Below, in pieces: positions 3,001 to 64,000 of a stretch of DNA of 64,000 nucleotides. Below the pieces are notes generated by a model, which was not told where the DNA came from, made no database searches, and saw nothing but the letters and a program-made list of their open reading frames with translations. The DNA comes from Undaria pinnatifida (lineage: Eukaryota > Sar > Phaeophyceae > Laminariales > Alariaceae): contig JABAKD010000002.1 in NCBI GenBank assembly GCA_012845835.1, positions 11,630,120-11,694,119 of the forward strand, written 5' to 3'. Each line of letters opens with the position of its first letter. Positions within the stretch are counted from its first letter, which is position 1. Both the position numbers and the translations under genes were made by a program.

Positions 3001-5686
3001 TATGTTTTGTCCTCGGGTGACCCCCCAAAGTATTAAATATTGAACCACGTGAGAGGTGTTCGCAAATAGCAAGGGTCGTGTTGAATAAGTATCCTTCCGA
3101 GGCTTTTCAACTACCAGGTATTGGGTTAGGGCTTGTGTGATGATGCACACATTGTGTGATGATGCACACAATACAAACGACCTCAAGGTCTGATGGTCTC
3201 GGTGTGAGTTGCTTGGGTTTTTGACTGAGCCCTGATCATTACCACCGCAAAAATGTTCGTGGTACGCGCGCCCCTTTTTTGCTCGTATCAGGTGAAAATC
3301 GACTACCAGCCACGAACGCTCAAGGTAGGGGCTTTGCAGCAGGGTGACTATTTGGAACTCCTCAACTTGTTCCCGCTCGAAGGGGTACACCTTACGCTGC
3401 AGAAGCTCCTCCTTTCCGGTGTTTCAGGATGGGGCGGTGTGACGCAACTCCTCCTTCAGGTGATGACCTGATGCCAACCCTTCGGCTCCGTAGTCCGCGT
3501 CAGTTGTAGCCGACTACGACCACGCGGTTGGGATTTGGTTGTGCCAGGTTATTGCCGAGTACCGGTGTGTTCATGAACGAAACTGAGTGTTGTTTCCGAG
3601 CTCTGGACGTTAAAGCCTTGTTTGGGTGACAGCGGCCAAGATACGGGGTGTATTGCCGTGGCGCTCCACCTCTGATTGCGTGTTTTTCGCTTGAAATTAA
3701 AGGCGCGAAAAATAAAGTTACAGCTTTGGGCCCTCGTGCATTTGGTCACCAGCTAGTCAAACCCCTTCGTAAAAAGTCCCCGAGCTCGTTGTGAACAACC
3801 CCTCCCTCTGTAATTATTATGCTTGCACTGAGCTTGCCATACTTCGTACCAATGCGAATGTTTTGTTCGGATATATAGCTGACATAAGCCGCTTTTTTCC
3901 TTTTCCATCTCACTGCTTTGACAGTCTTGGGTGCAGGACATCACGTCCAATCAACTGCACAAGTTTCTTGCTGGAACAACGGCTGTTCGCCCGCTGGTGA
4001 GTGCACATTGGTACATTTGCAGCGTGTAGTTATATCCATGACCAAAACATGTGCTTTCATCGCCTGTGGGGACTTCAGAGTGAAGAATGACTAAATTAAT
4101 TGGCGATTGATTATGGTATAGGCCACACAAAGCAACGCGGGCTGCTATCGTAGCCGCTAGGGTAAAGGATGGTACTTTTCATGTCGGTCTCCAACGCAAG
4201 GAGTTGTACGAAACAAGCGTGGCATGAAATGCCGTATGCTGCGCGCTTACACTGTGGCAATACCGCTCTTCTCGTTTATTTTGTCGCGTGTACATGAGTC
4301 CAAATATGATATTTATGCTTTGCATTATTCATTCCTCAATCTGGGTCCAGGTCTTCATAGCGTCCGTTCTTCTACACGGCGAGATCTATCGATATCCCAC
4401 ATGATACCCATCAAGAACACCGTTTAGAAAAATGCGAGGCTATTCCAGAAGTGCAGGATATTTCAAGCTCTTATTCGATTTGATTCCCCGCTCTAATCAG
4501 GTCACTGTCGGCAAAGGTGTGGCAGATCTCGTGCTTCTCCCTGTGGAGCAGTACCGACGAGACGGACGAGTGCTGCGAGGCTTGCGAAAGGGTACGCAGT
4601 CCTTCCTTCGGGCCATCACCATCGAAACGCTTCACACCTCTCACCGCGTCGCGAGCTTCGTGGCTCGAACACTGGACGATGTAGTTGCCCAGCCTGGCAG
4701 CCACGCGTCGCTGCGAGGCTTGGAGTACTACGATGAACAGCCCACGGGGGTCTTGGATAGCCTTGAGCATGCGTACGACGCACTTGCCAAGGAGGTGCAG
4801 GTGTGACAGCAATGGTTTATCTACGTCTGCATTTTCCGTAGGACGTTTCGTTTTCGCTGTCTCCTGTCATATAGGCACTCAGAGCGTCTGCTTGTGCGTG
4901 GTTAAGCAGCCTCATGGTTGCTTTGTTCCGGTCTGTAACCAGCGGAGGTTTAGAAAGGTTTCGTGTTCAAGGGGTGTCCTTGACAAGGTATCCTAATTCA
5001 GCCATTATACGTCATGCTGCTTACATAATTTGAGGTGCACGGATGATCGCAAGTTTGTTGTGCGAGAAAATCCTGTGTGATATGACAAGTTTATCTGATT
5101 CATGACTTTCAGGCGCGTCGAGCGCCTCTCTTTGACAGCCCCCAGGCTAGAACGGGGGCCAACATCTAGAGCGACGAGACATGCCAACTTTGAAGCCGCT
5201 AGTCCTTCTCGTGAACAATAAGCGAACGGGGAGGGAGCCTTACTTGTCTCTTCCACAAATTGCCCCATCGCGATATCTAGAGTCGGATGGCGTTTTTCAG
5301 TCTGGCGGCGGGACTAACATGCACAAACCCAAACGCTGAAGAAGATTACGTTTGACCTGGTAGAGTTCACGACTTGCAAACGCGCAATGCATATTGTAAC
5401 TGTAACCAACACGCTTGCGTTAATCAAGGCCGACCGCGCTCGCTCTTTTTCGTTTTTGCTCTTATAGGTGGCAGCCCAAACCATTATCGCCATTCCGTAC
5501 GAGGAGCAGGAGGAGGTCATCGGCCCACACGGGCGGTCCTACGTCCGTTCAGTTGCGCGAGCGCTCCCGGTTGCGGTACTACGACCTGTAGTTGGCGCAA
5601 GCGAGGCGTTGTCGTGTACGTTACTTGGCTTCCGGAATTACATGTCGCCAGTGATTCGCAGAGAGGAAGAGGGGAAGTGGAAATGA
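45..5686 (+). CDS. ATG2: ATG2 autophagy lipid-transfer protein, C-terminal part, six exons
   Basis: ATG2 is a long rod-shaped lipid-transfer protein that feeds lipids from the ER to the growing autophagosome. Exons that I can join in phase: about 45-465 (true start lies left of or near the window edge), 797-2493, 3292-3459, 3925-3996, 4468-4800, 5468-5686 (stop TGA 5684-5686). Introns are GT-AG; the first splits a codon (G/AT) and the rest are phase 0. Together they give roughly 970 residues, the C-terminal half of a usual ATG2. Diagnostic stretches are the CAD-region pattern ending exon 2 and opening exon 3 (VKIDYQPRTLKVGALQQGDY, then LELLNLFPLEGV), the VADLVLLPVEQYRRDGRVLR motif in exon 5, and the closing VARALPVAVLRPVVGASEAL block in the last exon. 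Exon 2 holds a long acidic, Ser/Gly-rich, probably disordered insertion before the conserved part. The acceptor at 4467/4468 is the in-phase choice among several AGs and is the least certain. No intact upstream exon can be defined at positions 1-44. Confidence 0.85.
2583..2880 (-). mobile_element. tRNA-derived SINE (family B), copy in an ATG2 intron
   Basis: The minus strand begins with a tRNA-like head (CGGTCGCCCCGGTGGTCTA) and carries a good B box (GGTTCGAATCCC) at about 2808-2821. The tail and body match a second copy at 51415-51710, including the CTGAGTTA end. The head holds two AT-rich inserts around ATTAATAG, so it would not fold as a working tRNA. It sits wholly inside the ATG2 intron 2494-3291 in antisense orientation. 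Confidence 0.7.
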
Positions 5687-12616: not shown

Positions 12617-13290
12617 ATTCGAGCGAAGCGAGTTTCTAATCTACACCTGGGCCTCGCAATATAGGCTCCCATAAAAAAAAAATAGTTTGCGTACGTGTCT
12701 TCGACTAAACTTGATTTTAGTGTGGGATCATTTGATTTTAGACTGCAGGTGGAGGCAGACCACCACGGAGCAACAAAACACATTCGAGCAAAGCGAGCTT
12801 CTAATCTACACCTGGGCCTCGCAATATAGGCTCCCATGGAAAAAAAAAGGTTTGCACGCGCGTGTCTTCGACCTAACTTGATTTTAGTGTAGGATCATTT
12901 GATTTTAGACTGAAGGTGTAGGCAGACCACCACGGAGCAACAAAACACACACATGCACACACACAGCAGACCACACGGGCAAAAACAGCAGCAAACACCG
13001 CTCGCACACCCGGCACATAGCGCTCACACAGCGGGCAGCACACAGACAACGGGCGCAGCGGGCGACAATAGTGGCCAGCGGAGAGCGGGCATGGAGAGTG
13101 TGTGCCCGCTAGGGGTGTGTCCGCTGAGTGTATCTACTGCTGTCTCGTGGTGAGAGTAGGTCATCATGGAGAGACGTCCGTTGGGGGCGATTGACCCAAG
13201 CTCGGTCCGTGCGCCAACGCCAGAAGAACGACAGCAGACACGGCGGAGGGGCTTGAGAGGGACCTCTACCTAGCTAAGGGAGCCAAGGTC

Positions 13291-13833
13291 ATGCTCACGA
13301 AGAACCTGTACCAACAAGTTGGACTCGTGAACGGCATTCGAGGCCAAGTCGTCGAGTTGGTGTTTGCAGACGACGCGCTCCCGCCGAACCTCCCCCTTTA
13401 CGTTGTCGTCAAGTTCAGAGGGTACTCAGGGGGGGAATGGTCGTCTCAGGAGAGATATAGAGGGTGTGTGCCGATTTCTCCCGTAGACACTACCTGGCAG
13501 GACGGGGGAACGCAGGTCAGGACGCAACTGCCATTGAGGCTTTACTGGGCCATCACTATGCACAAATCACAGGGGCAGACGTTAGAGAAGGCCGTCATAG
13601 ACTTGGGGCCGAAGGAGGCTTGCACAGGGCTTACTTTCGTCTGTCTCAGTAGGGCTAAAAGACTAGCGGACCTCATGGTAGAGCCAATGAGTTTCGACAG
13701 GATAGGCAAGCTTGGAAACTCCGACACCATGAAGGCTAGGTTGCGGGAAGAGGTTAGGCTGGTGGACTTAGCACAAAGCACGCGGGGTAGATACACAGGC
13801 ATGGGCGTCTTCAACGCCGTCGCGACCAACTAA
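13291..13833 (+). CDS. PIF1-type DNA helicase, C-terminal remnant
   Basis: The frame is open from about 13240 and has its first ATG at 13291. It reads through the late motifs of superfamily 1B helicases: KVMLTKNLYQQVGLVNGIRG (loop before motif V), LRLYWAITMHKSQGQTLEKA (motif V/VI region with the HKSQG signature) and TGLTFVCLSRAKRLADLMVE (motif VI with the Arg finger region). Walker A and B motifs are absent, so the N-terminal ATPase lobe is missing and the product cannot be an active helicase. Such C-terminal lobes are found in Helitron RepHel proteins and in free PIF1 genes. Its place inside a repeated element favours the former. Confidence 0.75.
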   Translation: MLTKNLYQQVGLVNGIRGQVVELVFADDALPPNLPLYVVVKFRGYSGGEWSSQERYRGCVPISPVDTTWQDGGTQVRTQLPLRLYWAITMHKSQGQTLEKAVIDLGPKEACTGLTFVCLSRAKRLADLMVEPMSFDRIGKLGNSDTMKARLREEVRLVDLAQSTRGRYTGMGVFNAVATN

Positions 13834-20489: not shown

Positions 20490-22260
20490 GAAGTTTGACT
20501 GAAACATCTTTACACTGCGCACGAAAGAAAAATCGGTTCTGGGAGCTAGAAACAAGCGGTGTAGCGGTAGGCAGAGTTATGAGGTCAGCAACAGATGCTC
20601 TAGACAGAATGTTGAGGAACAGACAGCTTTAGGGCGGGGAGAGACCTCCTCGGCTCAGGGCGGCGTCGATACGAAAACTAAGATTGATAGCTCTAGTCAG
20701 ACTTTCAGAGTGCAGAACAGCAAACAGTCGAGACCGAATGATGATGATTTCACGTCTTGGAATCCGAGAGAGACCTCTCGGGTGCCTGATACCAGTCGAG
20801 CAGAAAAGAAGAGACCTCTCCCTCTAGACAGAGTGAGAAAAATATGAATGGCAGCTCTAGTCAGTTCAGCCTTGTAGAGTGCAGAACAGCAAACATTCAA
20901 GACAAAATCACGTCTTGGAATCCGAGAGAGACCTCTCGGGTGCCTAATACCAGTCGAGCATAAAAGAAGAGACCTCTCCCTCTAGACAGAGTAAAAAAAA
21001 TATGAATGGCAGCTCTAGTCAGCCTTGCATAGTGAAGAACAGCAAACATTCGAGACCACATTATGATGATTTGACACCTGTGAATCCGAGAGAGACCTCT
21101 TGGATGCCGAATACCAGGCGAGCAGAAGAAAAGATAACTTGCTCCAGAAAGAGTGAAAGAGAGAAAAGTGGTAGATCTAGTCAGGCGTTCAGAGTGCAAA
21201 CAGCAGACGTTCGTGTCCGAATTATGGTGATTTGACACCTTTGAATCCGAGAGAGACCTCTCGGGAGCCTAGTGTAAGGCGATCAGAGAATAAGATAACT
21301 TGCTGTAGACAGTGAGAAAAAGGAAAGTGGTAGCTCTAGTCACGCTTTCAGAATGCAGAACAGAAAACATTCGAGACCGAACATAATGATGTAACACCTT
21401 TGAATCCGAAAGAGACCTCTCGGGAGCCCACGAAGTTTGACAGAACACACCTTTACTCTGTGACGAAGGAAAAGTCCAAGGAAAAAACGGTTCTGGGAAA
21501 TGAAAATAAGCGGTGCAGCGGTAGGCAGAGTGATGAGGTCGTCAACAACAGATGCTCTAGAAAGAGTGTTGAGGAGCAGACAGCCTTAGGGCGGGGAGAG
21601 GCCTCCTCGGCTCAGGGCGGCGTCGGCACGAAAACTAAGCGTGACAGCTTTAGTCAGGCTTTCAGAGTGCAGAACAGCAAACATTCGAGACCGAATTATG
21701 ATGGTTTGACTCCTGTGAATCCGAGAGAGACCTCTTGGATGCCAAATACCAGGCGAGCAGAAAAAAGATAACTTGCTCTAGAAAGAGTGAGAAAAAGAAA
21801 AGTGGTAGATCTAGTCAGGCGTTCAGAGTGCAGAGCAGAAAACATTCGAGGCCGAATTATGATGATCTGACACATTTGGATCCGAGAGAGACCTCTCGGG
21901 GGCCTAGTGTTAGGCGAGCAGAAAAAAAGATAACTTGCTCTAGACAGAGTGAGAACTTTCAGGACACCCACGGTTTTAGACGGAATTGTGAGGGTCTGAG
22001 AGAGTTCAATCGGGGAGAGACCTCTCCGGTGGAAGACAGCTTAGGAACGGAATGGAGCGTAGTAGCTCTAGGCAGAGTTATGAAAATCAGGACAGCAAAC
22101 ATTCTAGACAGGATTTTGATGTCCTGACAGCCCATAGCCCAGGAGAGTCTCCCGCGCGCAGGGCACGTTTTGTAGGAAAGAGAAGAAAGGCAGCTCTAGA
22201 CAGAGCTGCTCCGGCCAAAACAGTCGAAATTCTAGACAGAGTGACGATTATTTGACATCT
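20490..22260. repeat. minisatellite with higher-order structure
   Basis: Units of about 160-166 bp are marked by AATCCGAGAGAGACCTCTCG at roughly 20760, 20920, 21086, 21249, 21408, 21722 and 21882. Companion words are CAGAACAGCAAACATTCGAG and TCTAGACAGAGTGAGAA. A longer module with GGTTCTGGGA...GGTAGGCAGAGT...GGGCGGGGAGAG occurs at about 20490-20725 and again at 21428-21690, giving a higher-order period near 935 bp. Unit lengths are not multiples of three, so the similar peptide strings in all frames are by-products. Confidence 0.75.
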
Positions 22261-22261
22261 C

Positions 22262-22623
22262 CGTTTGCGGAGGAGACCTTTCGGGAAAGGGGTAACGCAT
22301 TTGCACCCTGCGCAAGATAGACCTCTGAGACAGAGTCAATGCAATGCTGGCGGGAGTCCTCAAAAGCAATGCAAAGAAGCGAGACCGCAAAAGAAAATTC
22401 CTAAACGAGTCGGTACTACAGGTAGCACCTATAGATGGAGTAGAACCTTACCACAGCCAAGCGCAAATACGCTAGAAATATTGCAAAGAGGACAAACAAG
22501 CAAGAATTGATGAATTGAACTGCAAATGGAATCAAACCAAAGCATCGATGGCAAGCAAAGCACATGAACTCACTACGAGTAACAAGAAGCAAACCATTCG
22601 CGGGATGGCAGAGACATGTACAT
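22262..22623. other. unassigned region
   Basis: Purine-rich sequence after the minisatellite with no recognisable gene. Confidence 0.3.
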
Positions 22624-22756
22624 AGCTGTTACACGTAAGAGAGGGTAGGGTGGGAAACGTGGCCGTCGGCATCGCAGGCACTCTGGTGTCGACTCCGCTG
22701 TCCGTCGATCAGATCAAACGCTACTTTGGGGACGTAAAAGGTTTTTCCGAAATTGG
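22624..22756 (+). pseudogene. reverse-transcriptase-like ORF, part left of the transposon
   Basis: Open frame from a TAG near 22621 up to the transposon. Its last codons (GFSEIG) continue in the same frame with the sequence right of the transposon once one copy of the 8-bp duplication is removed. The right part (30483-30892) has the retroelement string LRVAPLGAIVTHKVRNINDY. The whole looks like the N-terminal part of a retroelement RT. Confidence 0.55.
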
Positions 22757-22781
22757 GGCTCGACCCCCATGGTCTTACCTG
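22757..22781 (+). repeat. left terminal inverted repeat
   Basis: Perfect inverted copy of 30450-30474. Similarity stops at once on the inner side. Target duplication GAAATTGG abuts at 22749-22756. Confidence 0.92.
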
Positions 22782-22785
22782 CCTA

Positions 22786-23007
22786 CCCATAGTACAGACC
22801 AATCAGAAGGCTCCATTTAGGCCTTTTTTTTTTTTCTTCACAGTCCCTCCCCATAGTACACCATAGTACAGGCCAATCAGCGAGCGACACGAGGGTTGTG
22901 CGCGACGCAACTCTGGTCGGGGGTTGTGCGCGGCGCAACTCTGGTGGTACAGTAGTAGTGCTGCTGTAGTACTGCTGGTACAGTAGTAGTGCTGCTGTAG
23001 TACTGCT
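22786..23007 (+). promoter_or_regulatory. left subterminal repeats, likely promoter/transposase-binding region
   Basis: Three different words are each present twice between the left TIR and the first ATG. CCATAGTACAG(A/G)CCAATCAG ends at 22806 and at 22881, and holds a CCAAT box. GGTTGTGCGCG(G)CGCAACTCTGG occurs at about 22894 and 22922. GGTACAGTAGTAGTGCTGCT is in a perfect 31-base tandem at 22946-22976 and 22977-23007. Paired subterminal words are typical of transposase-binding sites, and the CCAAT boxes may serve the promoter; both roles are inferred. Confidence 0.5.
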
Positions 23008-23068
23008 GTGGTCAGCTCTGCCCAAGCGGCGCCCCAGCAGCGGCGGCGTACCTCTAAAGCACAAAAAC

Positions 23069-26000
23069 ATGAGGCAAATACATGTTGTCCATACGGCGAT
23101 CTTTGTGGCGCTGCTGCTATTCGCCCGGGATGGAATTCAGCGTGTGGTCGCTCCTCCTGCCCCTGTCGGGAGGCCGGCAGGGAAGCAGAATCGAACGGGT
23201 GCGGGCAAGCCAGGACCTCCATCCCAGGCCGACAAGAGACGCAAGATCATGGAGACGAAACGGCATGATAGCCGGTGGAAACGGTGGTCGGGGGTTGGAG
23301 GAGCAGAGCAGGGTAACTCCGCCGGGGGCAACAGCAGTGCTGGGCAACGTCGTTCCTCGGCCGGAGGGGATAGTGGAGGTAGCAGCGGCGGAGGTGGCGA
23401 CAGCAGTAGCAACAGCCACAGCAACAGCAACGGCGGCGGCGGCGGCGGCGGCAGCGGCAGCGGGAGCGGCAGCAGCACCGCAACTCCGCCCACACCGGCA
23501 TCCAGCGGCAGCGACAGCATAGGCGGGCAACCTTCCCCCTTGCCGGTGAGAAAAATGGATAAATTGCTCTGCTACTGCGAGGAACAGAGTATTGGTGACA
23601 CTACTGCTGTTGGCAACATGTGCGTACAAGTAGTCGTGAGGTGTGTTGCTGTAGTGTTGCCTGTGCCGCATTCCCAATGTTTGCTGTGAGGCGTCACCTG
23701 TTTGGGTTATCTTAAGTTCGCCGCAGAGGGAGAAACTGCTGTAGCTGCGATGCTCGCGGTGTACTGGATAGAGAAAAGCACTCATGGTGTGTTTTTTCGA
23801 GAGGGGAGGAAGACTCTACGAGTATAAGTTCGAAGCATGTTGTATTGTACGCAAGTGGTGGTGTGTCAGGAGACCCACGTACGTGTGACAGAACCAGCCC
23901 GATGCCCGCTTTTAGACCCGTCAGTTGTTTCATTTGCTCAATTCTGCACCTGGCCCGCCATACGCGTCAACAGAACATGCCGGTGCAGTCCTCGGGTCAG
24001 AGCAAGTTTCTGGCGCAGATCAAGGATAAGATTTCGAGGAGCGCCCCAAACCACGTCATCGGGAAATATCTTTTCGACGACCTGTGGGTTCACCCTCCAA
24101 ATCCGACGATGGTCAAGACCTTGGACTTGGAAGATCATCATCTTCGTTCTGTGTTCGTGTGGATCCCTGAGTTCACGTTCCCTGCTGCGTTCCCGGAGGG
24201 ACGGCCGCCTTGTCCGCGCTGCAAAACGACGTCTCGAGTGATTGCGAAAGGATTCACGCAGAAGGAATCCCGACGAGTTATTATGCGGAACTCCTGCTGC
24301 GATCTCCTCGGGTATTTTTACCACTGCCATGGCTGCAAGAGCAACAACAAGGGCAAGGAGAAGGTAAGACTAGCATACAATAGGTGGTCTCGTCGCTGTT
24401 TACGCTGGTGGATTTACACGAAAGACCCTTCACAATAGCAGTGGTATTGTTGTCGTGCCACAGCACATCCCATTAGCGAGGACCATGGATGTTACTGACG
24501 TGGACCCTGTTTCTTGTGTTTCCTCATCAGGTTTCTACCGTTCCTGAGAGATTCTCGAGCTGGGATGCTGGAGTTTTGTCACAGCTTCCTCTATTCGTGC
24601 GGGAGAGCTTTCCTTTCGTACTGACTCGCAAGTCCGCTATTCACGCGGACGTACTGGAAGAATCACCGACAATTTGGTGCACGCCAAAGGCTTCGCGGCG
24701 TCGCGCGCCGCTTTGGAGTAGGCGCACCTGAAGGAATTCCACGCGAGGGAGCTCAAGTACTACAACATGCTTTTGTGGCGGAAGCAGAACGTGCTTCTAC
24801 AGCCGATCACAGCAGTCAGGGACTTTGGGTCTTTCGGTGATCCCGACGGGTACAATGGCTTTGTGCCTTCGGAACACTATCTGTCCTCGGTTTGGTGCTA
24901 TGTGATGCAGAACAGGCCCGTCGCAAAGCTCGACAAGCTGGTGCAAGGAGTGGAAGGCGAGGTGAGGGTGCTTGTAGAAGTTGCAACGGTAGCGACGGAG
25001 TCAGCTGAAAAAGTTTGGTCGTCAGACCCTTGTCCAAAAGGTAGGGTTGTACGTGACAGCACATTTCACTTTATATTTCGGTTCCCCAAGCGGTACATTC
25101 GATTACAGCTTAGCGCTGTCAGTCATGGAGGCTCTGTTCCCGCCTGTTGCTCACGTAGTACTCCTTTGGCGCAAATTCTTTGGTTAAACCCTGTGATTTC
25201 CAGGAACGCTGGTCTCGGGAGTTGTTTTGCCACCTGCGCCAACAGAGCATTGACGGAAAAGTGCTGAAGGTGGACGGCTCTCACAAGTATGTCAAGCTTG
25301 TACGCGTTTTCGACTCCGGTGCTGCGGGTGGCACGAAGCCTGTCCACTGCATAGTCACGTTCTTCAACGAATTCGAGCAGGTTCGTTGCGAGTGGTTGAT
25401 AAGGGCTGAGATTCAATTTCAATACAAGATTTATCTGAGTGGTCCATTTTTTTTTTCGTATCAAAGTAGAGAACGGACTCTTGAGTACCCCTTTACGTCG
25501 TTGTCCTCGTTGACTGGAACCGTGCTCCCGCTCCGGCGGATGATGACCACTGTCTGCACGATTCGTTGAGTAGCAGGTTGGACATTGTTGTGCATTTTGT
25601 CGCATTTTCGTACCAGAGCAGTCTTTGCCTCACGTTCGTGGTCGTCTTCTCCTCGTCTGCAGGTTGTGTTTCAGAAGGCCTTGCAGTCGGCCTCTCTCAG
25701 GGAACTCAAGGCGGACGTCAAACTGTTGTTTGCAACACGATACACGGGAAGGGGGTTTCAGTTGCCAACGGTTTTGTACACTGACATGTGCTGCGAAGAC
25801 AGGGCGTTAATGGTGGAGATCTTTCGAGAGATGCGCGATGAGGGGCACGATTTTTCTGTCGATGATGATGTGCCGACTTCCTCTGACGGTCCGATATTTC
25901 AGCTTCCTCCCGATGTACGGCAAATCGGCTGCATTCACGCAAGCAGAGACACGAACCTTGTCAGGGCCGGGGTTGACAAGCTCCGGCAGGAGGCCAGGGT

Positions 26001-29000
26001 TAGCGGCCGTGTTCTTGGTCTAGACATCGAGTGGGAGGTATCTCGTGCTGGTGCCCCTCCCAATCCACCCGCCACGATCCAGTTGGCTACAGGGAAGGTA
26101 GTGGTGATCTTTCATGTCTTGCATGGTCAACGTACTCCTCCCGACAAACTGCCGCAGTCGTTAGCGGGCTTGTTGGAGGATGCTGGTCTCGCCAAGACGG
26201 GTGTCGGGATCAAGGGTGATTGCACTCGGCTTCAGCGGTTCTTTGGTGTGGAAGTACGCAATGTAGTTGATCTACCAGGACTGGCGCTGCAACGCAAGGT
26301 GAATGTGGGCCGAAGACGGAGCCTCGCGGATCTGTGCCTTCATCTCCTGGGACAACGTTTGCAGAAGGAGCAGCACCTGAGACTCGCGCTGGAACGTGGC
26401 GGAGCTCGAGGAGGAGCAGAGGGGGTAAGCTGCGTTTGAAACACATTGAAGCATCGGCTGTAGCCCAATCCTCGCATACTGCTGTTCCTTCGTGTATGTT
26501 GTCCACTTGACCATTGCGCACGCGGGTGTTGTTGTGGTGCAGAGAAAGCATACGTCGGAGGTGTTAAACGTCACCGTTGTTCCCTGCCTCGTCCTCCTTG
26601 TTTTCTCCTTGCCGAAGGTATGCTGCACGCGATGTATACGCATCATACGTCTTGTACGGGCGCATCTCGGAGCTTTCTGATCCGATTTTCAGGGAATCGG
26701 AGGAGTTGCACCCCGGGGATAGTGTTCGTCTCTACACTCGGGGCGGAGATGAGTGCGTGGGAGAAGGCTGCATCGTCGAGTACGGAAAAGAGACATGGGG
26801 TTCAACAGGCATCTTCCTCGCCCCTCGACGTGCTACCCGCGGCCTTACTCGACGGTGGGTCGTGCGGCTGTCAAAGGTGCTTGTGCCCCTCGCAAGCACC
26901 TTGTATCCCGAAGAGACCGATGCACCACGGACCCAGCTGACCACGCAGGTGGGAGGCCGGTTAGGTGAAAATCTGCTGTGGGACGCAGATCGCATGCGGA
27001 AGACAGTAGGGATGACACCCTCTCCGGCTGCACCTGCGGGTCACGGCGGCGGTCCGAATGCTGGTGGAGGAGCCGCGTCCTCAACGGCAGGAAGTTCGGG
27101 TGCGGCTGTCACGGGTTTGGCTGGATTTGTGACTCCATCTGAGCCGTTCTTCGCTGGAGAACTTGCTGGCGTCGAAGCTCTGAGCGAATCTGCGTCGTCA
27201 CTTGCTACAAGTGCAAGGGTTGGCGAAATGGGACGGAGAGAAACAGAGGTGGAGCGCAGCGGAACGGAGCGGGGTGTGGGCGAGGTGAAGCTTGACGAGC
27301 CCATGGAGGCCGACGACCATACCGTTGCGGAAGCCGGCCCCGATGGCCAAGGTGAAGCGGAAAGCCTTCTTGAGTGAGTAAAGGTTGGCTGTCGGTTGTG
27401 CCCATCAGTTTTTAGAAACCTGGCACGGATCGCAGAGGGGTGTATTACCCTTGGGCATGGCGTGCGCTTTAATGCGCCGTTTGTTTTTTTAAACTTGCAC
27501 AGTTCGGAAATCGAAGCCCTGCGGTCGCGCTCTGTGATCTAAATAACAAAAATAGTTTCGTTCCCGTGTCCTCCATCGGAAAACGCCTTTGCTACAGATG
27601 GGCCGGCTGCGCCTCAAACTGGATCCTTTTCACGCCATGCAGCGGCTGAGCAAACTTGTCCTCAAGAGCCACGGTGCGTGTGGGGCGTACATGGCGCGTC
27701 TTAGAGATGCGTTGTTCATGGTCCACTCGGAGGATCTGGCGGCCGTGGAAGCAGCGCTGCGTCTATTGGGGAAGACTCCTGCAGAGATCGAGGAAAAAAA
27801 GAAAACCGACTGGGCGTACTTTCTTCAGAGGTGCCGCAGGTACGACAAGTTGTGGGACGCGTTATAAATATGTGTAAATGTCGTTTTGTTTTCAAAAGTG
27901 TAACAGGTTTCTTTTCTAGTTTTGAGCGGGTCAATTTCGTTGACCTCCGAATTTCGACTTGTCAAAAACCAAGTGAGATTGACGTGGTTGCTGACAGTGA
28001 AAAACCAAGTTGCACCTTGCCCCCCGATGACGTTTGTAAACCCGACAGGGTGATTCCTCAATCCGACCAGCTAGCCGATCGCTTCGATTTGGTTCACCGC
28101 ATCTACGGCCACCTCCTCGATGCCAAAACCAAGCAACCTTTGCTCCGAGCAGAAGCATGGGAGGCCGTAAAGCGACTCAGAGTTCACATCAAAGCCGGTT
28201 GCTTGAGTGACCCTCCAGGTGTCGCCCTGTATTTCGAGGCAGGCAAGGATTCCGCGACGGGCTGCTCGCTGTTTCGCTGTGTTCGCGGCACCAATGACCT
28301 GGAGGGGTATCACTTGCGCATGCGCCTCCTGGCGGCATGGTGTATTTCACCACTTCTCGCTCATCTTCTGCTCCTCGAGTACAACTACAGGTGGAACCTG
28401 CGCCAGGCCGTCAACAACCGTGGCCTTGACTCATCTGTTGAGGGGTTCTACGATCAGCCGGCGCTCGAAGCCGTTCAGGTCGGATGTCCATAGAATGAGC
28501 GCGTTGTTGCTTGAAGGGTTCGGGTGATAATTTGTGTCGCGGTTTAATCGTCAAGTTTTTCCCCGCATTCATAGTATTCATTCGACGCTGCATGGTCAGT
28601 AACGATTCCCTATCGCCGGCTCCTTGTCTTGACAAAGAATGACGTCCATGCTTTTCGTAAAGGCGAAGTACTCAAGCTGGGTGCCGACCAACGCGTATAG
28701 CGATACGGGGGAACGCAGCGGGTTTGTCCGGAGTGTTCCAGAAGGGGGTGAAGGGGTCGAATCGCTTGATGATTCCGAGTTGGATGGGCAGGAGAATGAC
28801 GGCGAGGCCGTCCCGCTTCCGGACCTGACGCAGTCGGCGGCTGCCCTCGCAATCATGCAGGGAGTGCAGGTGCCCGCCATGCCGGTCAGTACCGCTTACG
28901 AGCGCAACAAGTTTGGTGAAATGTCGCTGACATTTGCTCGTGCGAGTGGGTCGCAGTCTTGCCCTGACTTCGATGCCTTCGCGATCGAGTGGAACAAGGC

Positions 29001-29695
29001 CGTATCTGCCATAGAAGGAGAAAAGAGTCCGGCGGTGCCCATCTTCAGGAAGACGGCTGCATCCTTGAAGTCCTTCTGGAAAAAGTGAGCAAGATTTAAG
29101 AACCCGGTTTGATTTTCCTTCCTGCATGCTCCGCCCGTATTCCAGCGTTGTAAGCAAGCGAATGACAGCAACCATTTTGCGCACCCTATCTCAAGGTGGC
29201 AGGCACGGCGAGAACATCAACATGAGGGACACTATGCGGCCCGCTCAAACCGTGGGAGCGTCCGTCAGGAGCCAGCTTCGTGCGCCCATGGATGTGCAAG
29301 GCGCTGCAGCCGCGCCGGCAGAGCCCTGGCTGCCGTCACCGCCAGATGGCTTTTTGTTTCCTGCGCAGATGGCGGAGGTGGGAGGAGTCAGCAGTTCATC
29401 GCAAGCTGCCGGAGCTGCTGGTTCTGATGTTAGTGCTGTGTCAGGCGCTTCTTCGGCGGCGGGTGCTAAGCGGCGGAACCAGCACTGCCGTACGTGCGGG
29501 CACAAGATGCGAGTCGGAGCCTTCAAACGTCACCACAACCAGTTCTTGTCATCTCCAGGTCCCATTTGCACCGTGCCAGAGAGTCGACGCCGCGTCAAAG
29601 TCAACCCGAGTGCCACGAGGCCCATCCGGATGTTCGGTAGCGAGTGTCACTGCGTCGAGGATGATGCTTACCCGGGGGGGTGCAGCTCGAAGTAG
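23069..29695 (+). CDS. putative DDE transposase with embedded 3'-5' exonuclease domain
   Basis: Exons joined in consistent phase: 23069-23545, 23974-24363, 24531-24961, 25204-25380, 25663-26424, 26618-27373, 27503-27533, 27598-27839, 28049-28478, about 28657-29084, 29146-29695; about 1,550 residues. Order: Gly/Ser-rich disordered start with basic KRRK; zinc ribbon (CPRC...CHGC, exon 2); FSSWDAGVLSQLPLFVRESF block; first acidic motif KVDGSHKYVK (Asp at 25273); LYTDMCCEDR (Asp at 25783). A DnaQ-type exonuclease follows: LGLDIEWE at 26014-26034, GVGIKGDCTRL, RSLADLCLHLLG, and YAARDVYASYVLY across a splice. Then LKLDPFHAMQR (Asp 27622), RGTNDLEGYH (Glu 28302), and a C-terminal zinc motif CRTCGHKMRVGAFKRHH. 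The exon 2-3 part resembles the DUF6729-type region of eukaryotic exonuclease proteins. Lesions: one base lost near 24657, TAG at 24719-24721, frameshift near 26383. The acceptor near 28657 is uncertain. Confidence 0.75.
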
Positions 29696-29915
29696 GTGGA
29701 CCATAAGTCTACGTCAATGAAAGGGTTCGCGTTTGATAGCGAGAGCACGTACCTCGAGGGCATGGTTGTCTTGGGCAGCCCATTATCGTGCCCACAGGGT
29801 AGGCGCGTTGTGCAGGCATGCGTTTATGGATGTAGCTTAAGGGAGCATGTAGTGGCATAATCTCGGTTGTACTCGGGGCTCCACTTTTGCATTCTTGAAA
29901 GAACAAATACATTGA
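29696..29915 (+). other. 3' flank of the transposase gene inside the transposon
   Basis: Non-coding stretch between the transposase stop and the 269-bp duplication. It presumably holds the 3' UTR. Confidence 0.4.
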
Positions 29916-30453
29916 CACAGATTTTATTTTCGTTCGGTCTTGGCTCTCCTCTTGGACACTGTATTCCACGTCGATCGTTCTACGTGGCATCCCAATGGGT
30001 AGAAGACATCAAACGCTTCAATCCGATACCTTGTTTGTCGACGTACTCCCATTTGATCAAAAGTTATGCAACATTTACTGCTTGTAGTTGTGATCTTTTA
30101 CACGTGCCGTTGACCAAAAAATTCGGCCAAAAAAAAAATTCTCGCTTCGCGCGAAAATAATGCAACTATCGGGCAAGGTAAGAGCACAGATTTTATTTTC
30201 GTTCGGTCTTGGCTCTCCTCTTGGCCACTATATTTCACATCGATCGTTCTACGTGGCATCCTATGAGGTAGAAGACATCAAGCGCTTCAAACCGATACCT
30301 TGTTTGCCGACGTACTCCCATTTGATCAAAAGTTATGCAACATTTACTCTGCCTGTACGTAGTTGTGATCTTTTACACGTGCCCTTGACCAAAAAATTCG
30401 GCCAAAAAAAAATTTCTCGCTTCGCGCGAAAATAATTTAACTATCGGGCCAGG
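29916..30453 (+). repeat. 269-bp tandem duplication at the right end of the transposon
   Basis: Two copies (29916-30184 and 30185-30453) begin CACAGATTTTATTTTCGTTC and each ends AACTATCGGGC(A/C)AGGTAAG. The inner copy therefore ends in a rudiment of the TIR start, and only the outer copy runs into the full TIR. Both hold TTGACCAAAAAATTCGGCC and TCTCGCTTCGCGCGAAAATAA. Confidence 0.85.
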
Positions 30454-30474
30454 TAAGACCATGGGGGTCGAGCC
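30450..30474 (-). repeat. right terminal inverted repeat
   Basis: Reverse complement of 22757-22781 without mismatch. Read on the plus strand it starts CAGGTAAGACCATGGG, which contains a consensus 5' splice site and an ATG in good context. Target duplication GAAATTGG follows at 30475-30482. Confidence 0.92.
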
Positions 30475-30482
30475 GAAATTGG

Positions 30483-31150: not shown

Positions 31151-33956
31151 ATGGCTGAAGTGGGGAACGAAAATCCTGCGGTCAACTCATCTCAGGGTGG
31201 ATCGCAGGAGGTTGGTGAGAGGATGGGTTCCTTAGAGACACAGTTGCCTGAGCTTGCGACTCTAGTGTCATCTCAGCAAGATCTACTTAAGTCGCTCGTT
31301 GATGCAGCAAGGAAAGAAAGTGGAGTCCTCTGGTTCTGAGCGTGTTTCACCTAGAGACACCGGACTCGAGGCTGGTGTGCACTAATCGGGTTGACCAAGG
31401 CTTCGGCGTCTCCAGCATGCGGGTTGGGAGTAGGAGTGTTAGCTCAGGCTTGAATCCCCATGTATCTGCTGAAAATCGTTCCTCTGTTCCTGCAGTAAAC
31501 TTTGGTTCGATTCACGGGACTGTCGGTAGGGCTGCTGTAGGTAGCCAGTCCGCTGTTCCGCCCGCTCCTTCTCTGTCGAGTGAGTGGTGGGAAAACGTCG
31601 CCAGTGGAAACATACTGATTCCTGGGGCTGACATTACCGACACGGGAGAGAAGTTGGGTAGGGGTCCTTTTAAAGTTCCCAAAGCTCCTGCTTTTGACGG
31701 CAGCGACGTGTCGTACCCCTCATGGTCATAGAATTTTCTGCTGAGTGCCCGACACAACAACCTGTATGAGGCGTTTGTTTCCGACACTGAGGTTCTGATT
31801 GCAGATATTGGTTTTGACTTGACCCCCTGGGTAGAGAAGGGTTTCAATGTGGATGCGATTCGTCATGCAGAGATCGCTTGGTGGTTTTGTTCGACTGCTT
31901 GAAGAAGAATAGTCTGAAAACCATGGCCAGGCACGCTGGTTCCCCCAGCAAGGCGTTTTGTGTGCTCCAGGATCATTTTCCGACGTTGAGCCAGAGTCAG
32001 ATTCGTGTGCAGGAGGAGAAACTGAAGTCACTGCGCGTGCGTTCGAGCGAAAATCCCGCAACCTTCTTTGCATCCATGAGAGAGACACTTGGTGTTCTGC
32101 AAATGCTTGAAGTCAAGAAAGATGACAGGGAGGTGTGTAATCTGATGCTTGAAGGGCTGTCGCACGAGTACAAGACTTTGCGTGAGACTTTTGTTGTGTT
32201 CTGTTCGAATGACCCATCGTTCATCGAGACTAAAGTGCGTGAGCGTTACCTAGACTTGCAGGCACAGGGTGGTTCGAAGAAAAACAGTAGTGTTGCTCTG
32301 GTGTCTAGGACTGAGAGGAAGAGTAGCAAGAAGCACAACAAGCCGAAGTCTAACTCCGAGTCTGAGTCGTCCAAGAAAAGTACTTTTCAGGGGAAGTGTT
32401 TCAAGTGTGGGGAGAAGGGTCACTTGAGGAAGGACTGCCTGGCTCGCATCATCGCTCACCCCACACAAACTGGGAAATCCGAGGCCGACCGGGATAAGCG
32501 CGGTGAGAAGTCTTACGTTTCTCATTTGGGGTGTCTGCTAGCACGCCGGAATGGTGTGTTTGTGCAGGCATGTGAAGAGTTGCGCAGTATGATGTACGAT
32601 GTTTCTGGTTTGAAGTATCTGCTAACATCACGAGATGATCTGATTCTGAGCGCTGTCAACAAGGATATGATTATGAACGCTGTTAACAAGTCTAAGTATT
32701 TCGAGATTGGTATGCGGACACGGGCACTGCTTTTCACATGACAGAATCTCCCGCTTGCATGAAGGATTTGAAGCCTTGCCAGAAGAACGTTAATGGGATT
32801 GGTGGCGTGTCTTCTGAGGTAGAATTCTCTGGAACACTGGAGTTGGTGTTTGTGACTTGCTGACAGCGAGTTTTCAGTAAACCTAACCCTAACCTCAAGT
32901 AGAGCTGAAGAACGTGTTGTACTCCCCCAACTTTGGATACAACCTCTTTTCTCCGAGCGCAGAGTTTGATGGCGAGTCATGGAATGGTCGTGGTGGTCCT
33001 GATGGTGTTATGACAGCTTTTCAAGGACAAGTCACTTTTCAGAACTTCGATGGCAGGCTGGTTGCGACTGCGTATTGTCTAGGAGAAGACTATTGGTACG
33101 GTGTTGGCTGCCCTCCCTCCTACAAACCCCAAGCATTAAACCACGATGGACGAGAACGAGTTCCACAACATTTATGCTCATTCGCACGAGGCATTGCTTC
33201 GTACCACTTCAAACAACTAGGTACCGAGTTGGTTGGTGACATGCATGCTTGTACGGGATGTTCAATGTCGAAGGCTATTAGGAAAGGAATTTCTCATGAA
33301 ACTAAACGTACATCAGATAAAAAGTTGGGCAGAGTTTTTGTTGACCTGGGAGGGAGGAAGAACGTTGCGTCCGTAGGAAGTAAACATTACTTCATGATTG
33401 TGACGAATGATTTCACAAGACGTGCATGGATTTATTTCCTGGGAAATAAATCAGACGCTGGCGGTGCTTTCCGAAGTTTTCTTGCGAGTGTGCGTGCTGA
33501 TGGGATCCCATTGGTTGAGATTGCTATATTTGACCATGGAGGGGGGTTTTTCGGGGGGGATTCGCGTCTGTGTGCAATGAGCTTTTGATCAAACAAGAAT
33601 TCACTCCGGCTTATAGTCCGCAATATAGTGTTGCAGAGCGTGGGTTGGGATTGATTCAGGAGGCCGCGATGGCGGCTCGTATTCAGGCGAAGGTTCTTTT
33701 TGGGCATGTGCAGTTACCCAAGACTGACAAACGCTGGGCTGAAGATAAGCACTGGGCCTGCGAAGCAATGAATCACACCGCACGATATGCTAACCCTGAC
33801 TCTAAGTCACCGTATGAGATGTGGTATGGAGAACCTCGACGCTGCCTCGACGCTGCCAGGGTCTATGCTGACATTTTTTTTCTTTGCACATGTCCGGACA
33901 GCTACTGCCCAGAGTTTACTAAAGCTCGCGGAGATACTGCGCCTTACAGCGTTTAA
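31151..33956 (+). pseudogene. Ty1/copia retrotransposon: gag, protease and integrase remnants
   Basis: ATG at 31151 opens a gag-like frame that is interrupted by a shift near 31336, a TAG at 31729-31731 and a shift near 31890. The main gag segment (31878-32741) has a CCHC zinc knuckle (CFKCGEKGHLRKDC, 32398-32439). A protease start follows with WYADTGTAFHMT near 32708. The integrase lies at about 32914-33956: GRVFVDLGGRK (first Asp), FDHGGGFFGG (second Asp) and YSVAERGLGL (Glu), split by a frameshift near 33550-33570. The copia RT and RNase H that should follow are not visible, and no LTRs of this element were found in the window. The element is dead. Confidence 0.8.
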
Positions 33957-39473: not shown

Positions 39474-39697
39474 CGATGTCCACAAAACCGAGGTTATGAT
39501 CCACCGACAAATCGTCCGTTACCTGACCAATTAGCATAATTTGAAATGCCGTGCTCTGCTCAGGCGTCGTGAGCTCCGATGGAGTGAGTTAGAGCAAACT
39601 CTTCGGGACAGGTTTTGCCGAAATCCAAGCGGCAAAGCCAGTGGGACGCCAAAACGCTTTGTTCGCTGATAACCAAAAGGGTCATGCCTAACGAGCT

Positions 39698-41158
39698 TCG
39701 TCGACAAAGCCAGCAAGTTCTTGTTCGCCTTTCCACTCCCTACGAAAGAAGCAATCGGAGTAGCGAGGAAACTGCTCGAAGTGATGCTTACTTTTCAACT
39801 ACCGCTGTATGTTCGCAGTGATCCGGGATCCGAGTTCACGGCAGAGGTGATGCAACACTTATGTAAGTGGTTGAACGTGACCATCGCCTATGGGCCTGCC
39901 GATCGTCCACGTGCACAGGGGACGGTGGAGAGACTGAGGGGGTGGCTACACGAAGCACTAGGAGAACTGTGTAAGACCTGGCCTCGCAGATGGGACGAGT
40001 ACGTACAACCGGCACTGTGGATCCATCGTACCACGCCGGACCTGCGCTTACCGGAGAAGCCAACTCCCTTCCGTCTTTTCTTCGGTCGTGATGTACGCAC
40101 GCAACTTGATGCTACGCACCCCAAGATAGATGGTGGTGATTTCAGAGGCGGAATGCACAGTTACGTGGCCGACAAACGTCAAGCGTACAAGGAGGTACGG
40201 GATGTACGGATGACTCTATCGAAAAGACATGAAGACAGGCAGAAAAGTCGTGAGAGTCGGGTTGCTGAAATCGGTCGGACCTCGGTGGGAACCCGTGTTG
40301 TTGTCGGAGATAAGGTGCTGGTGAAGGAGGCGGAGTCTGTGATGTTAAGGGAAGGGATACATCATAAACTAGCCCACGAGCACTGGTTCGGACCTTGGGA
40401 GGTGACTGAAGTTGTCTTACCAGGACTCAGCTACATCGTCACGATGAATGGGCGAGGGATTCGCCGACGACGGGCGTCAGCATCGAATATCAAGATGTTC
40501 CACTTACGTCCGGACGACCTCCGTCACGACTTCGAAAACGAACTTGCTTACCTGGCATGGGGAGTTGACTTCGGACTGGCGGAGCCGTCGATTGTAGCGT
40601 CGCCTATGTATACCCTAATAGACAGAAAGGCTGTGATGGGTCAAGGCAACGCTTGGAAGTGGCGATACAAGGGACGATTCGTGGATGGCACAGAGTCGCA
40701 GTGGCTGTCCGAAGAGGAGGCACGAGACAGTGTCACCCCTTTACAGCTGGACGTTTTCCATGCGCTGTGGGAAACGTATCACGGAGCGGAGTGCCGGGCA
40801 AGATCAACAATGACGCTAACGCGGAAGGAAAGAGATGGGATCGACCGTGAACAAGCGTTGAAACAACACCCCGTGGGACCGTGATCTGGAGGGAATTCGC
40901 GGACGCTGAAGGAAACAAGAAGCGTCACCTTTCAAAGGTCTTAGACTACAAGTCACCGTACTGGCCGGTTCAGTACGCAGACGGAGATTGGGAGAAGCTC
41001 AACGAACGTGAAATCCTGAAAGGTAGGAGGACCGGAAATTCGCAATCCGGTTCCCCGTAAACGTGGAACGTGAAGTGGAGGCGGATGGAGAAAGGGAGAA
41101 GACGTTGGCCAAAGATCGACCAGCGAGGAGGATCAAGGCCTCGGCCTACCCGGGTTAA
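39698..41158 (+). pseudogene. Ty3/gypsy integrase and pol C-terminus
   Basis: The 3' end of a gypsy pol gene. The core domain keeps the three catalytic acids: VDKASKFLFAF (Asp near 39703), YVRSDPGSEFTAEV (Asp near 39820) and RAQGTVERLRGW (Glu near 39930). A GPF/Y-like module follows (EHWFGPWEVTEVV, near 40380), then a chromo-like tail (WKWRYKGRFVDG). The main frame stops at 40884. After a shift the protein goes on to a C-terminus KASAYPG with stop at 41158; the same C-terminus appears in the minus-strand element at 60355. Everything upstream (protease, RT, RNase H, zinc-binding HHCC) is missing. Confidence 0.8.
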
Positions 41159-41439: not shown

Positions 41440-41879
41440 TGTTGCGACGGATTGACATGACGTCACATGAAACTCCGTGGCGGAATGCTGCCTAGGTCTG
41501 TATAACCCCGATCAGTCTAGAAAGCGTGCCGCTTGCGGCATCAGTCTAAAACACACGGAACCAAACGAGGGAAAAAGGAACCTGAACTTGATCTGACACG
41601 ACCGTGAGTGACTGCGAACCGAGCTTGAGTACAGCTATCGTTACCGTCAGGCATTGTTGGAGGTTTCATCCGGAGATCTGTTATATTGTACGAGCGCTTG
41701 GAAGAGGACTGCGTGAGACGAGACTGGTGTTTGCAGGCAGCTGTTGCAACAAGCAGACGGGAGGAATCAACCTGAAGATAGACACGGAGGAAACGAACTA
41801 GAAGCGGTGAGAGAGTTGGGACAAGGGATTGGAGACTTGGGTACGTGTGACTAAAATAGCTCTTTATCCGTTCGTTACA
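41440..41879 (+). repeat. 3' LTR of the gypsy element (440 bp)
   Basis: Begins TGTTGCGACGG and ends GTTCGTTACA. Related LTRs on the minus strand are at 43242-43683, 48702-49143 and 59628-60072. A short purine run (CTGAGGGG) abuts its start, where a polypurine tract is expected. Confidence 0.85.
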
Positions 41880-41884
41880 CTTAT

Positions 41885-43170
41885 CATGTATGAACTTACT
41901 CGTCATCGGCACTGATGATAATCCCTTCCCGATGTCCTATTGGTCTTGTATCCTTTAATCTACTGTTTACATTTTATACAACTTAGTCAGCCCTTGCTAT
42001 ATTTTTCCAAAATAACCCAGCCCGTAGATTACGATTTCGCGTAGTATAAATACCAACTTGTGTACTCTTCTATACAAGGTATAATAAACAAGACCAACCT
42101 GTGTACTATTCTTCCGTACAGCAATTGCTAATACTCCAGACGAATCGATTTCTCGTGCTATACAAGGTGCAACAAACAAGTAACCCCAATGATAACGTAC
42201 ACATATAGACTAATACTCTATACTCATGCCCGCACACTGTTTTGACCATGTAGTCTTTACAGCAGTAGTAGGTATGTGTATAATATTTTTATTGCTACAT
42301 TATTTCACTAGCTCAACAGTCCATGTTACTCCTTCCTCACCATCCTGACTTCAAAAATATCCCCCCAGCTTGCATGTAGGCAAGGCTTACTAGCAGGCAG
42401 GGATACATGTATGTCTTTTCCAGTTCAAAATTTGAAAAATTAGGTTTACGGATATTGTCAAAATACATTCCAGTTGTGAGATCGCTTTGTACCATCGCTT
42501 CCTGTATGCATCCGTTATCGATTGAGTACGTACTGATACCCAAACAAGCAAGAAATATTTTTTAAAGCAAAATCAGGTGTATCCGGGCAGTTTGGTGTCA
42601 AAACTGGTGTAGCACAACAAACAAGAGGATATAAATCACAAACGACATACAGAACATATGATACGCCCGTATACAGCACGATGGCATACATACTTGGTAA
42701 AATTATGCACAAGTACTCGTCGTAAGAATAAGTACGAGCACGAAAGCAAAAATATGCATGCTCTGCGGGGCAATTTATACCATTGAGGCATACGTACCAA
42801 CGTTTATTCTGCATCGCATACAAAAAAACATTGTGTCAGTCAAAGCGGGGAGAATCTCGTTTGCTCTCTGTATGTACTGCTGTGCGTAGCATGGACTGCG
42901 TGACTCCTAATTATGTATAAACTGTCAAGCGTCTCATTCCTTGCCTCGGCTACCTAGAGATCACGACCATCGATTCTCATCACTCATGCGGCCTGATGTA
43001 CTGCTGCTTCTATTTCTGCGGTATCTGCCTGTGGTTATCCTACAGCGTGTGGGGTTCGTAATACTATTTTAAGCTGCTTCAATCGAGATTTTCAACATGA
43101 TAAAATAGAGTTGAACTGCCATGGAACTTTCTTCAACACCCTGTAAAATCCATTCATACTTCTCCCTTGC
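41885..43170. repeat. 1.3-kb repeat, copy 1
   Basis: Matches 45838-47360 in the same orientation over most of its length. Shared words include GAACTTACTCGT, ACATTTTATACAACTTAGTC, AGTTCAAAATTTGAAAAA and GATCACGACCA. It holds no coding frame. It lies between a plus-strand and a minus-strand gypsy LTR. Confidence 0.7.
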
Positions 43171-43683
43171 GCATTTACGACTGTACTTCTACCTGCGTCA
43201 AGCGAGACTATCAACCCACACGGATCCCAGCTGAAGCCCCATGTAACGAACGGATAAAGAGCTACTTTAGTCACACGTACCCAAGTTTCCAATCCCTTGT
43301 CCCAACTCTCTCACCGCTTCTAGTTCGTTTCCTCCGTGTCTATCTTCAGGCTGATTCCTCCCGTCTGCTTGTTGCAACAGCTGCCTGCAAACACCAGTCT
43401 CGTCTCACGCAGTCCTCTTCCAAGCGCTCGTACAATATAACAGATTTTTGGATGAAACCTCCAACAATGCCTGACGGTAACGATAGCTGTACTCAAGCTC
43501 GGTTCGCAGTCACTCACGGTCGTGTCAGATCAAGTTCAGGTTCCTTTTTCCCTCGTTTGGTTTCGTGTGTTTTCGGACTGAGGCCGTGAGCGGTACGCTT
43601 CCTAGACTGATCAGCGTTATACAGACCTAGGCAGCATTCCGCCACGGGGTTTCATGTAACATTCATGTCAATCCGCCGCAACA
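43171..43683 (-). mobile_element. gypsy 5' LTR with primer-binding site and leader stub
   Basis: LTR 43242-43683 (442 bp, minus strand). Directly after its end on the minus strand comes TGGGGCTTCAGCTGGGAT (43224-43241). Starting TGG, it has the form of a primer-binding site complementary to a tRNA 3' end. About 50 further bases of leader are shared with the copy at 48.6 kb, then similarity to the gypsy family ends. Confidence 0.75.
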
Positions 43684-62654: not shown

Positions 62655-63903
62655 ATTCACTGCCCACATGACTGTCATGCATTTAAGGTCTATTGCTGGA
62701 TTTTTGGAGTCCCCTCTCGATCACATTTTGCTGCCGTACGCGATCACCTTCACCATTCCTTCGATGCATTGCGTTAGCACCGCTCCTGCTCCTATCTCAC
62801 TAGCATCGGTGGACAGCGAGAACAGTTCTGTCCACACCAGCAGGGCTAGATCTGGAGGTGACGTCAAAGCCTCGATAAGCGCATTTAAAGCCTTGTTCTG
62901 CTCTCTAAACCGTGGATCTCTCAGCAAGTCGGAAATGGACGCCACCACTGTGCTATACTGGGGTACGAATTGCCTTGGGTACCCTGTCATGCCCAGTAGC
63001 ACTCGCACTTCCTCCACCGTGTTCGGCCTTGACAGCTGCGTGATAGCATCAATCTTGTTCGGGGCCGGCCTGGTACCAAGTCTATCCACGATCATGTCGA
63101 CGAACTCCATGACCGACTGACAGAAAAGCGATTGCTGGAGATTTACGGTCAAACGTCCTTGCCGTAGACACTGACGTTTCTCGCAGCAGTCCCCATTGAT
63201 CTTCAAGGGTTTTCGACGGGATGGCGATGTCATCCAACCAGTTCTTGATTCCCCTATCCTTGACGGTTAACAGTCGCCCTCCCACGTAGTTGGCAAACGC
63301 GGATGGCACTGTCGTCAACCCGAGGCCGCAGCGAACGTGTTCGTACAGCTTTCTGTCAGCGTCTCGAAATGCCGTCAGCTGTCGATCGTCCTCATGGATC
63401 TCGAGCTGTAAGAATCCTGAAGCTAAATCGATGCTGGAGAAATACTTCGACCCTTCCATCTCATCCACAATATGCTGCAAGTCTCCGAGTCCACCACTCT
63501 GTAATTTGAAAAGCGCATTGATACCTCGAAAATCCTGCACAACCCGCACTGTCCCATCTTTCTTGTGAACCGTCGAACAATTGGCGGCCCACTCGGAAGT
63601 TGATTCCCGAATGGATCCATTCTTCAGGAGCTTCACCACCTCAGTCTGAATCATTTCGCGCTGTTCCGGGCTGTAGTGTCGAACGGGCGCCACGTATGGC
63701 TCGACGTTGGGATCTTTGAGCTTCAGTCGCATGGGCACTCCTTTGCATGCTGGTACGCTATTGGGGTTGACCGCGAACACGTCGATGTACTCGTTAAGAA
63801 TGCCTATTAGCGTGTGTGTCCTTTTTGCTCGGACTGAGCTGTCCGAAGTTGGCCTCTCCCAGGTCCACCTAGGGGGCTTCGCTTGGAATCTCTGTGATTT
63901 CAC
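62655..63903 (-). pseudogene. Ty3/gypsy reverse transcriptase and RNase H start
   Basis: The frame 63903-63082 carries the RT fingers and palm: KLLKNGSIRESTSEWAANC, KKDGTVRVVQDFRGINALF, SSIDLASGFLQLEI (first catalytic Asp) and IKNWLDDIAIPS (LDD of the YxDD box, Tyr replaced by Trp/Leu context). A frameshift near 63190 leads to LLGMTGYPRQFVPQYS and FSLSTDASEIGAGAVLTQ (RNase H first Asp). It ends at the Helitron-like insertion. Protease and gag would lie right of the window. Confidence 0.85.
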
Positions 63904-64000
63904 CCCCTTTGTTGCATTGCTCCGGTGGTTCCCCTTGGTATTTTTCCTTGATCACCTCATTCTGCTTCGGGCTTGTCGGTTTCTCCGACACCGGGTTCAT

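Follow-up and report, generated by a model that had tools for sequence, protein, structure and literature searches.

The window (the whole stretch of 64,000 nucleotides analysed here) contains a 7,718-bp element that is probably a cut-and-paste DNA transposon from the branch of Dada whose transposases bear an exonuclease; the copy is probably full-length, but its coding sequence is broken. We call it Dada-like because the layout of its enzyme is that of Dada, but three of the traits described for Dada fail: the element has perfect terminal inverted repeats (TIRs), an 8-bp target site duplication (TSD) and an insertion site that lies outside any recognised small RNA gene, with apparently relaxed targeting. 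Kinship to Dada is the best reading and is judged by the layout of the protein rather than by alignment to Dada reference proteins. On its own, the window copy is a broken transposon.

Ends, target duplication and insertion site

A preliminary description of this DNA reported a TIR transposon with perfect 25-bp inverted ends and an 8-bp target duplication, and the anatomy is as claimed (Table 1). The ends pair at 25 of 25 positions, the adjoining base is mismatched, and GAAATTGG stands directly outside both ends. An identical outer 8-mer was found for only 2 of the 1,118 exact inverted 12-mer pairs that lie 300 to 20,000 bp apart in the window, and the pairing of the element's TIR with GAAATTGG exceeds chance. 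The subterminal repeats next to the left TIR are candidate binding sites for the transposase. A 23-mer of the TIR had no match in viral contigs and none in prokaryote genomes, and the end structure is known from this one locus.

Table 1. Positions of the features of the element, numbered from the first base of the window
Feature	Position	Strand	Basis or details
TSD, left copy, GAAATTGG	22749..22756	.	direct reading
Whole element, 7,718 bp	22757..30474	+	TIR and TSD boundaries
TIR, left, 25 bp	22757..22781	+	25/25 complementary to 30450-30474
Left subterminal repeats	22787..22945	+	20-nt unit x2 (22787, 22861; 95%); 28-nt unit x2 (22890, 22918; 93%)
Exon 1, low complexity	23069..23545	+	N-terminus of P0001, 48% over 139 columns
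Exon 2, DUF6729-like zinc finger	23974..24363	+	CPRC 24211-24222, CHGC 24325-24336
Exon 3	24531..24961	+	tblastn; frameshift near 24660, in-frame stop 24719-24721
Exon 4, first catalytic Asp	25204..25380	+	VDGSHK 25270-25287
Exon 5, second catalytic Asp and start of DEDDy exonuclease	25663..26424	+	YTDMCC 25777-25794; exonuclease DxE 26020-26034 and D 26212-26229; frameshift near 26384
Exon 6, exonuclease YAARD and linker	26618..27374	+	YAARD 26619-26633; donor position without GT
Exon 7, DxxH motif	27598..27839	+	DPFH 27622-27633
Exon 8, third catalytic residue, Glu	28049..28478	+	GTNDLEGYH 28287-28313
Exon 9, C-terminal region	28639..29084	+	30% to P0004 708-867; edges uncertain, chiefly the start
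Exon 10, CCHC-type finger, then stop	29146..29695	+	finger 29486-29569; edges uncertain, the start included
Right subterminal tandem duplication, ~270 bp	29916..30458	+	29916-30183 and 30185-30458, 92% identical
TIR, right, 25 bp	30450..30474	-	exact reverse complement of left TIR
TSD, right copy, GAAATTGG	30475..30482	.	direct reading

Removal of the element together with one 8-mer leaves an open frame of 123 codons across the joint, with 43 codons to the left and 80 to the right. The flanks therefore join in frame as first described, but their designation as RT-like is not supported: a 177-aa protein read from the joined flanks, with the frame switched by eye some 100 to 135 bp to the right of the joint, had no match to any Pfam family at E<=1. 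If this by-eye change of frame is correct, the target was already a relic before the insertion. As a control, all six frames at the joint were inspected and two more are open, over 97 codons (on the reverse strand) and 55 codons. Because of these two frames the empty-site argument is only moderate; it supports a clean insertion to that extent and is not the self-contained proof that had been proposed. A search for the empty site outside the window found no relatives of the 177-aa flank protein in viral contigs.

The target does not appear to be a small RNA gene. A tRNA scan gave no genes and there were no Rfam families in the window at the gathering score; at E<=1 there were none in the 205 and 211 bases flanking the ends, a scan that covered the two flanks separately. 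Repeat-like frames that resemble one another by eye lie to the left of the element (20900-22300), and a Copia-type gag with a zinc knuckle lies to its right (31818-32738; the knuckle is above the Pfam cut-off, the gag models are below it).

The transposase gene and its relatives

The recognised coding exons, about ten in number, all lie on the + strand and make up one gene. They were modelled by tblastn-type matching of related proteins to the window (for exon 3, P0001, P0002 and P0009), and relatives matched back in this way show a single protein that spans most of the element up to a C-terminal finger. The order of motifs in the gene is CPRC/CHGC, VDGSHK, YTDMCC, the exonuclease (LDIEW, KGDCTR, YAARD), DPFH, GTNDLEGYH and CRTC...H...C. 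Pfam detects DNA_pol_A_exo1 in exon 5 of the window gene with E=2.5e-9, while the match of the window exons to DUF6729 is weak (E=0.0015) and below the cut-off. No mention of DUF6729 was found in the open-access literature searched.

Relatives were sought in three protein searches, each of which scored about 8,000 candidates. The spliced query returned at least three among the matches listed: P0001 (from eukprot, 1,178 aa), with 61% identity over 93% of the query; P0002, which is named Undpi1, a name that we take to denote Undaria pinnatifida, with 81% identity over 57% of the query; and P0003 of the chytrid Blyttiomyces (1,722 aa), with 30% identity over 97% of the query. The match to P0002 supports a brown alga as the most likely source of the window. 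A search seeded with P0003 gave at least seven proteins among the matches listed, including P0003 itself and P0001; the five that it added are a JGI protein, one from the chytrid Chytriomyces, one from Ephemerocybe (presumably a mushroom) and two more. The profile search had one new protein among its listed matches and did not relist P0003-P0008. All of P0001-P0003 contain DNA_pol_A_exo1 according to Pfam; DUF6729 and the exonuclease are both above the cut-offs in P0001 and P0003, and P0002 has the exonuclease only. P0003 also matches the sequences of solved structures of WRN and EXD2, with E=2.1e-11 and 1.3e-6, respectively. These proteins, of which WRN is a helicase fusion, share the DEDDy exonuclease domain with the element but are separate cellular enzymes in which that domain is not inserted into a transposase.

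Conservation of the motifs was read by eye from an eight-row alignment of trimmed proteins, counting only the rows that reach each site. The DxE and the next D of the exonuclease are kept in all eight rows and are also invariant in another alignment. The first D of the catalytic triad is present in 6 of 6 rows, the second in 7 of 7, DxxH in 6 of 6 and the Glu of the GTNxxE type in 5 of 5; the CxxC-CxxC finger is kept in 5 of 6, the exception being P0002. Two relatives lack parts of this set: the P0001 model departs from the reading frame immediately upstream of the Glu, and neither a DxxH nor a Glu block is seen in the whole model of the mushroom protein P0008. AlphaFold models built from eight sequences were poor, with mean pLDDT values of 42 and 48. 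Foldseek placed exonucleases in the top rows for both models, and no transposase was among the best 50 matches listed for either. To our eye, the order of the predicted secondary structure resembles that of an RNase H-like fold that the exonuclease interrupts.

Viral contigs contained no relatives of P0001, of P0004 or of a window exon piece. A related exonuclease-DDE transposase, interrupted by stops and sharing 59% identity with the exon piece from the window, is encoded at 1008-4286 of JALZUP010000133.1, a contig binned into a bacterial metagenome-assembled genome (Robiginitomaculum); this contig is most likely algal DNA that contaminates the bacterial bin. No TIR was found in it, as the best match has 10 mismatches in 25 positions and 20 mononucleotide shuffles gave minima of 8 to 11.

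The reading frame of the window gene is broken, although its catalytic and zinc residues are retained. Exon 3 carries a frameshift and a stop in comparison with P0001, P0002 and P0009, a second frameshift in exon 5 is judged against P0002, and no GT follows position 27374, where the splice donor was placed from P0001. P0009, a 381-aa reading of a 2,812-bp ENA contig, is intact at the first two of these places, and hence close family members with an intact stretch exist; it is 89% and 91% identical to the window over 81 and 150 residues, and a third, gapped stretch is 65% identical. Sequencing error may be a source of the lesions in the window. The preliminary description inferred a recent jump, a reading that rests on the 25-bp ends and the 8-mer and is unsupported because the transposase gene has two frameshifts, a stop and a missing donor GT. 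Given the broken gene, this copy was either moved by the transposase of another copy or decayed after its insertion.

Probable assignment to Dada and the competing classifications

In the definition of Kojima and Jurka (2013, PMC3706591), Dada combines a DDE triad and a DxxH motif with a CCCC finger near the N-terminus and a CCHC finger near the C-terminus. For the Dada elements of Laccaria and Ectocarpus they also reported a DEDDy (DnaQ) exonuclease, located after the second D and ahead of DxxH. All of these parts occur in the window gene, in the same order. The triad, with DxxH between the second D and the E, is recognised by motif only; the N-terminal finger corresponds to C218, C221, C256 and C259 of P0001; the C-terminal finger reads C-x2-C-x11-H-x11-C; and the DEDDy exonuclease occupies the position reported for Ectocarpus and Laccaria. 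The spacings differ from those of Dada-U6_DR, in which the first pair of the N-terminal finger (C389, C394, C429, C432) is Cx4C instead of CxxC, the intervals of the CCHC finger are x2, x9 and x8 instead of x2, x11 and x11, and the first and second D (D567, D635) are 68 residues apart as against 76 in P0001 (434, 510). Complete Dada elements are reported to span 4,666-10,979 bp (PMC3706591).

Three traits separate the element from the Dada described so far. Kojima (2022, PMC8869645) gives the Dada duplication as 6 or 7 bp and places many Dada inside multicopy RNA genes, whereas the duplication here is 8 bp and the scans described above found no such gene. Kojima and Jurka describe the Dada-U6 and Dada-U1 families as having no TIRs, and state that all clearly definable Dada termini are tied to small RNA genes (PMC3706591); the element has a perfect TIR of 25 bp. 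The C/DxxH group of transposons (hAT, P, Kolobok and MuDR) produces duplications of 4-10 bp (PMC3706591), and an 8-bp duplication is therefore not foreign to an enzyme of this kind. By their published descriptions, the closest counterparts are Dada-1_ES of Ectocarpus and Dada-1_LB/Dada-2_LB of Laccaria, which share the DDE triad with DxxH, the CCCC and CCHC fingers, the placement of the exonuclease and the presence of introns; their names carry no target, whereas both ends are visible in the element described here. Dada-U6, Dada-U1 and Dada-t, from fish and others, share the set of catalytic motifs and the zinc fingers but have a 6-7 bp duplication and insert into snRNA, tRNA or 5S genes. The available text of the 2022 paper (PMC8869645) makes no mention of an exonuclease. 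Among the papers listed in searches of an open-access library, none was seen to report a TIR-bearing Dada outside RNA genes.

The failure of these three traits, together with the spread of the relatives over chytrids, a mushroom and other sources, might instead indicate a separate, unnamed superfamily, in which a DUF6729-exonuclease-DDE transposase with its own TIR and 8-bp duplication merely resembles Dada. The preliminary description had suggested that the superfamily may be new. This is unlikely, and was dropped as the lead reading, because Kojima and Jurka already reported the layout with the exonuclease and placed Ectocarpus and Laccaria elements of the same domain order inside Dada (PMC3706591). 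We consider it more improbable again that the element belongs to the KDZ (Kyakuja-Dileera-Zisupton) transposons, a class of giant elements that is common in Ectocarpus. The genome of that alga is described as having eight KDZ families and a single Dada family with 15 copies, one of them intact (PMC12477816); the available text of that paper gives no description of Dada ends. As described for KDZ1-3 of Cryptococcus and for Ectocarpus KDZ, such elements share with ours an 8-bp duplication (4-8 bp in KDZ2/3), a large size (about 9-11 kb in Cryptococcus) and a large transposase with a zinc-chelating domain (CxC1 in KDZ, an N-terminal zinc finger here). In contrast, no KDZ or CxC model of Pfam matched P0001-P0003 at E<=10 or, at E<=1, the nine element pieces scanned, which comprise neither exon 1 nor the start of exon 3; for lack of any such domain match, KDZ was rejected as the lead identity. 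An exonuclease in this part of the transposase, after the second D and ahead of DxxH, has been reported for Dada, the word being absent from the available text of the Cryptococcus KDZ and Ectocarpus transposon papers, and the TIRs of Cryptococcus KDZ measure 139-241 bp compared to 25 bp here.

Pfam scans of the exon pieces and the three relatives agree with the earlier observation that the gene matches no transposase of the hAT, P, Merlin or KDZ groups: hAT, P, Merlin and MuDR families were listed for none of the three relatives and none of the nine element pieces. These scans also bear on a reading that we regard as the least probable, namely, that a non-Dada transposon with an 8-bp duplication (e.g., hAT, P or Merlin) captured a Dada-like gene or received a nested Dada fragment. 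A broken transposase would fit such cargo, and mobilisation in trans has been inferred for giant Ectocarpus elements whose copies have pseudogenised transposases (PMC12477816). Yet the transposase runs in one orientation across most of the element, and Pfam lists no second transposase in the nine pieces. We thus retain the exonuclease-bearing Dada lineage as the most probable source of the element.

Possible mechanism and other features of the window

The zinc fingers may bind the TIRs and the subterminal repeats, and the DDE/DxxH centre would cut the element free at its ends and attach these to the two strands of the target with a stagger of 8 bp, such that gap repair would yield GAAATTGG on each side. 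The built-in exonuclease may trim exposed 3' ends, as Kojima and Jurka suggested (PMC3706591). A broken copy could take part in such a reaction when mobilised by the transposase of another copy, or it may have decayed after inserting. It is conceivable, and we propose it only tentatively, that exonuclease-bearing Dada form a mechanistically distinct branch in which long TIRs and an 8-bp stagger were either kept or acquired and insertion is not directed to small RNA genes. In that case the exonuclease and relaxed targeting would be coupled, and the strict RNA-gene targeting of fish Dada would be a derived state of an exonuclease-free branch. A Dada-like layout that combines an extra exonuclease with TIRs, an 8-bp footprint and another kind of site would make it possible to ask which parts of the protein set the target and the stagger. 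Defined ends would also allow kelp and fungal genomes to be mined for further copies and for MITEs.

Several other features were noted in the window. The other of the two inverted pairs with identical outer 8-mers, at 41751/43370, was considered as a second element with a target duplication and was rejected: it forms part of a more extensive inverted repeat, and its 8-mer reads identically on both strands, and hence the 8-mer is not a target duplication. The inverted repeat at 41720-43400 extends over about 1.6 kb and includes the palindrome GTTGCAAC. The window also holds 1,545 pairs of exactly matching inverted 20-mers; the 40 pairs listed, from the region 15849-61600, involve 20 positions from 15849 onwards, each of which is paired near both 55.5 and 61.6 kb, and this suggests a multicopy repeat. 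An open frame at 631-2580, with a match below the Pfam cut-off to the autophagy protein ATG2, is possibly a host gene. A Pif1-type helicase 2B domain (Pfam) is found at 13195-13830; as a guess, it may derive from a Helitron. Finally, there is an integrase-like frame below the Pfam cut-off at 39673-40881 (+ strand) and a reverse transcriptase fragment above the cut-off at 63085-63951 (- strand).
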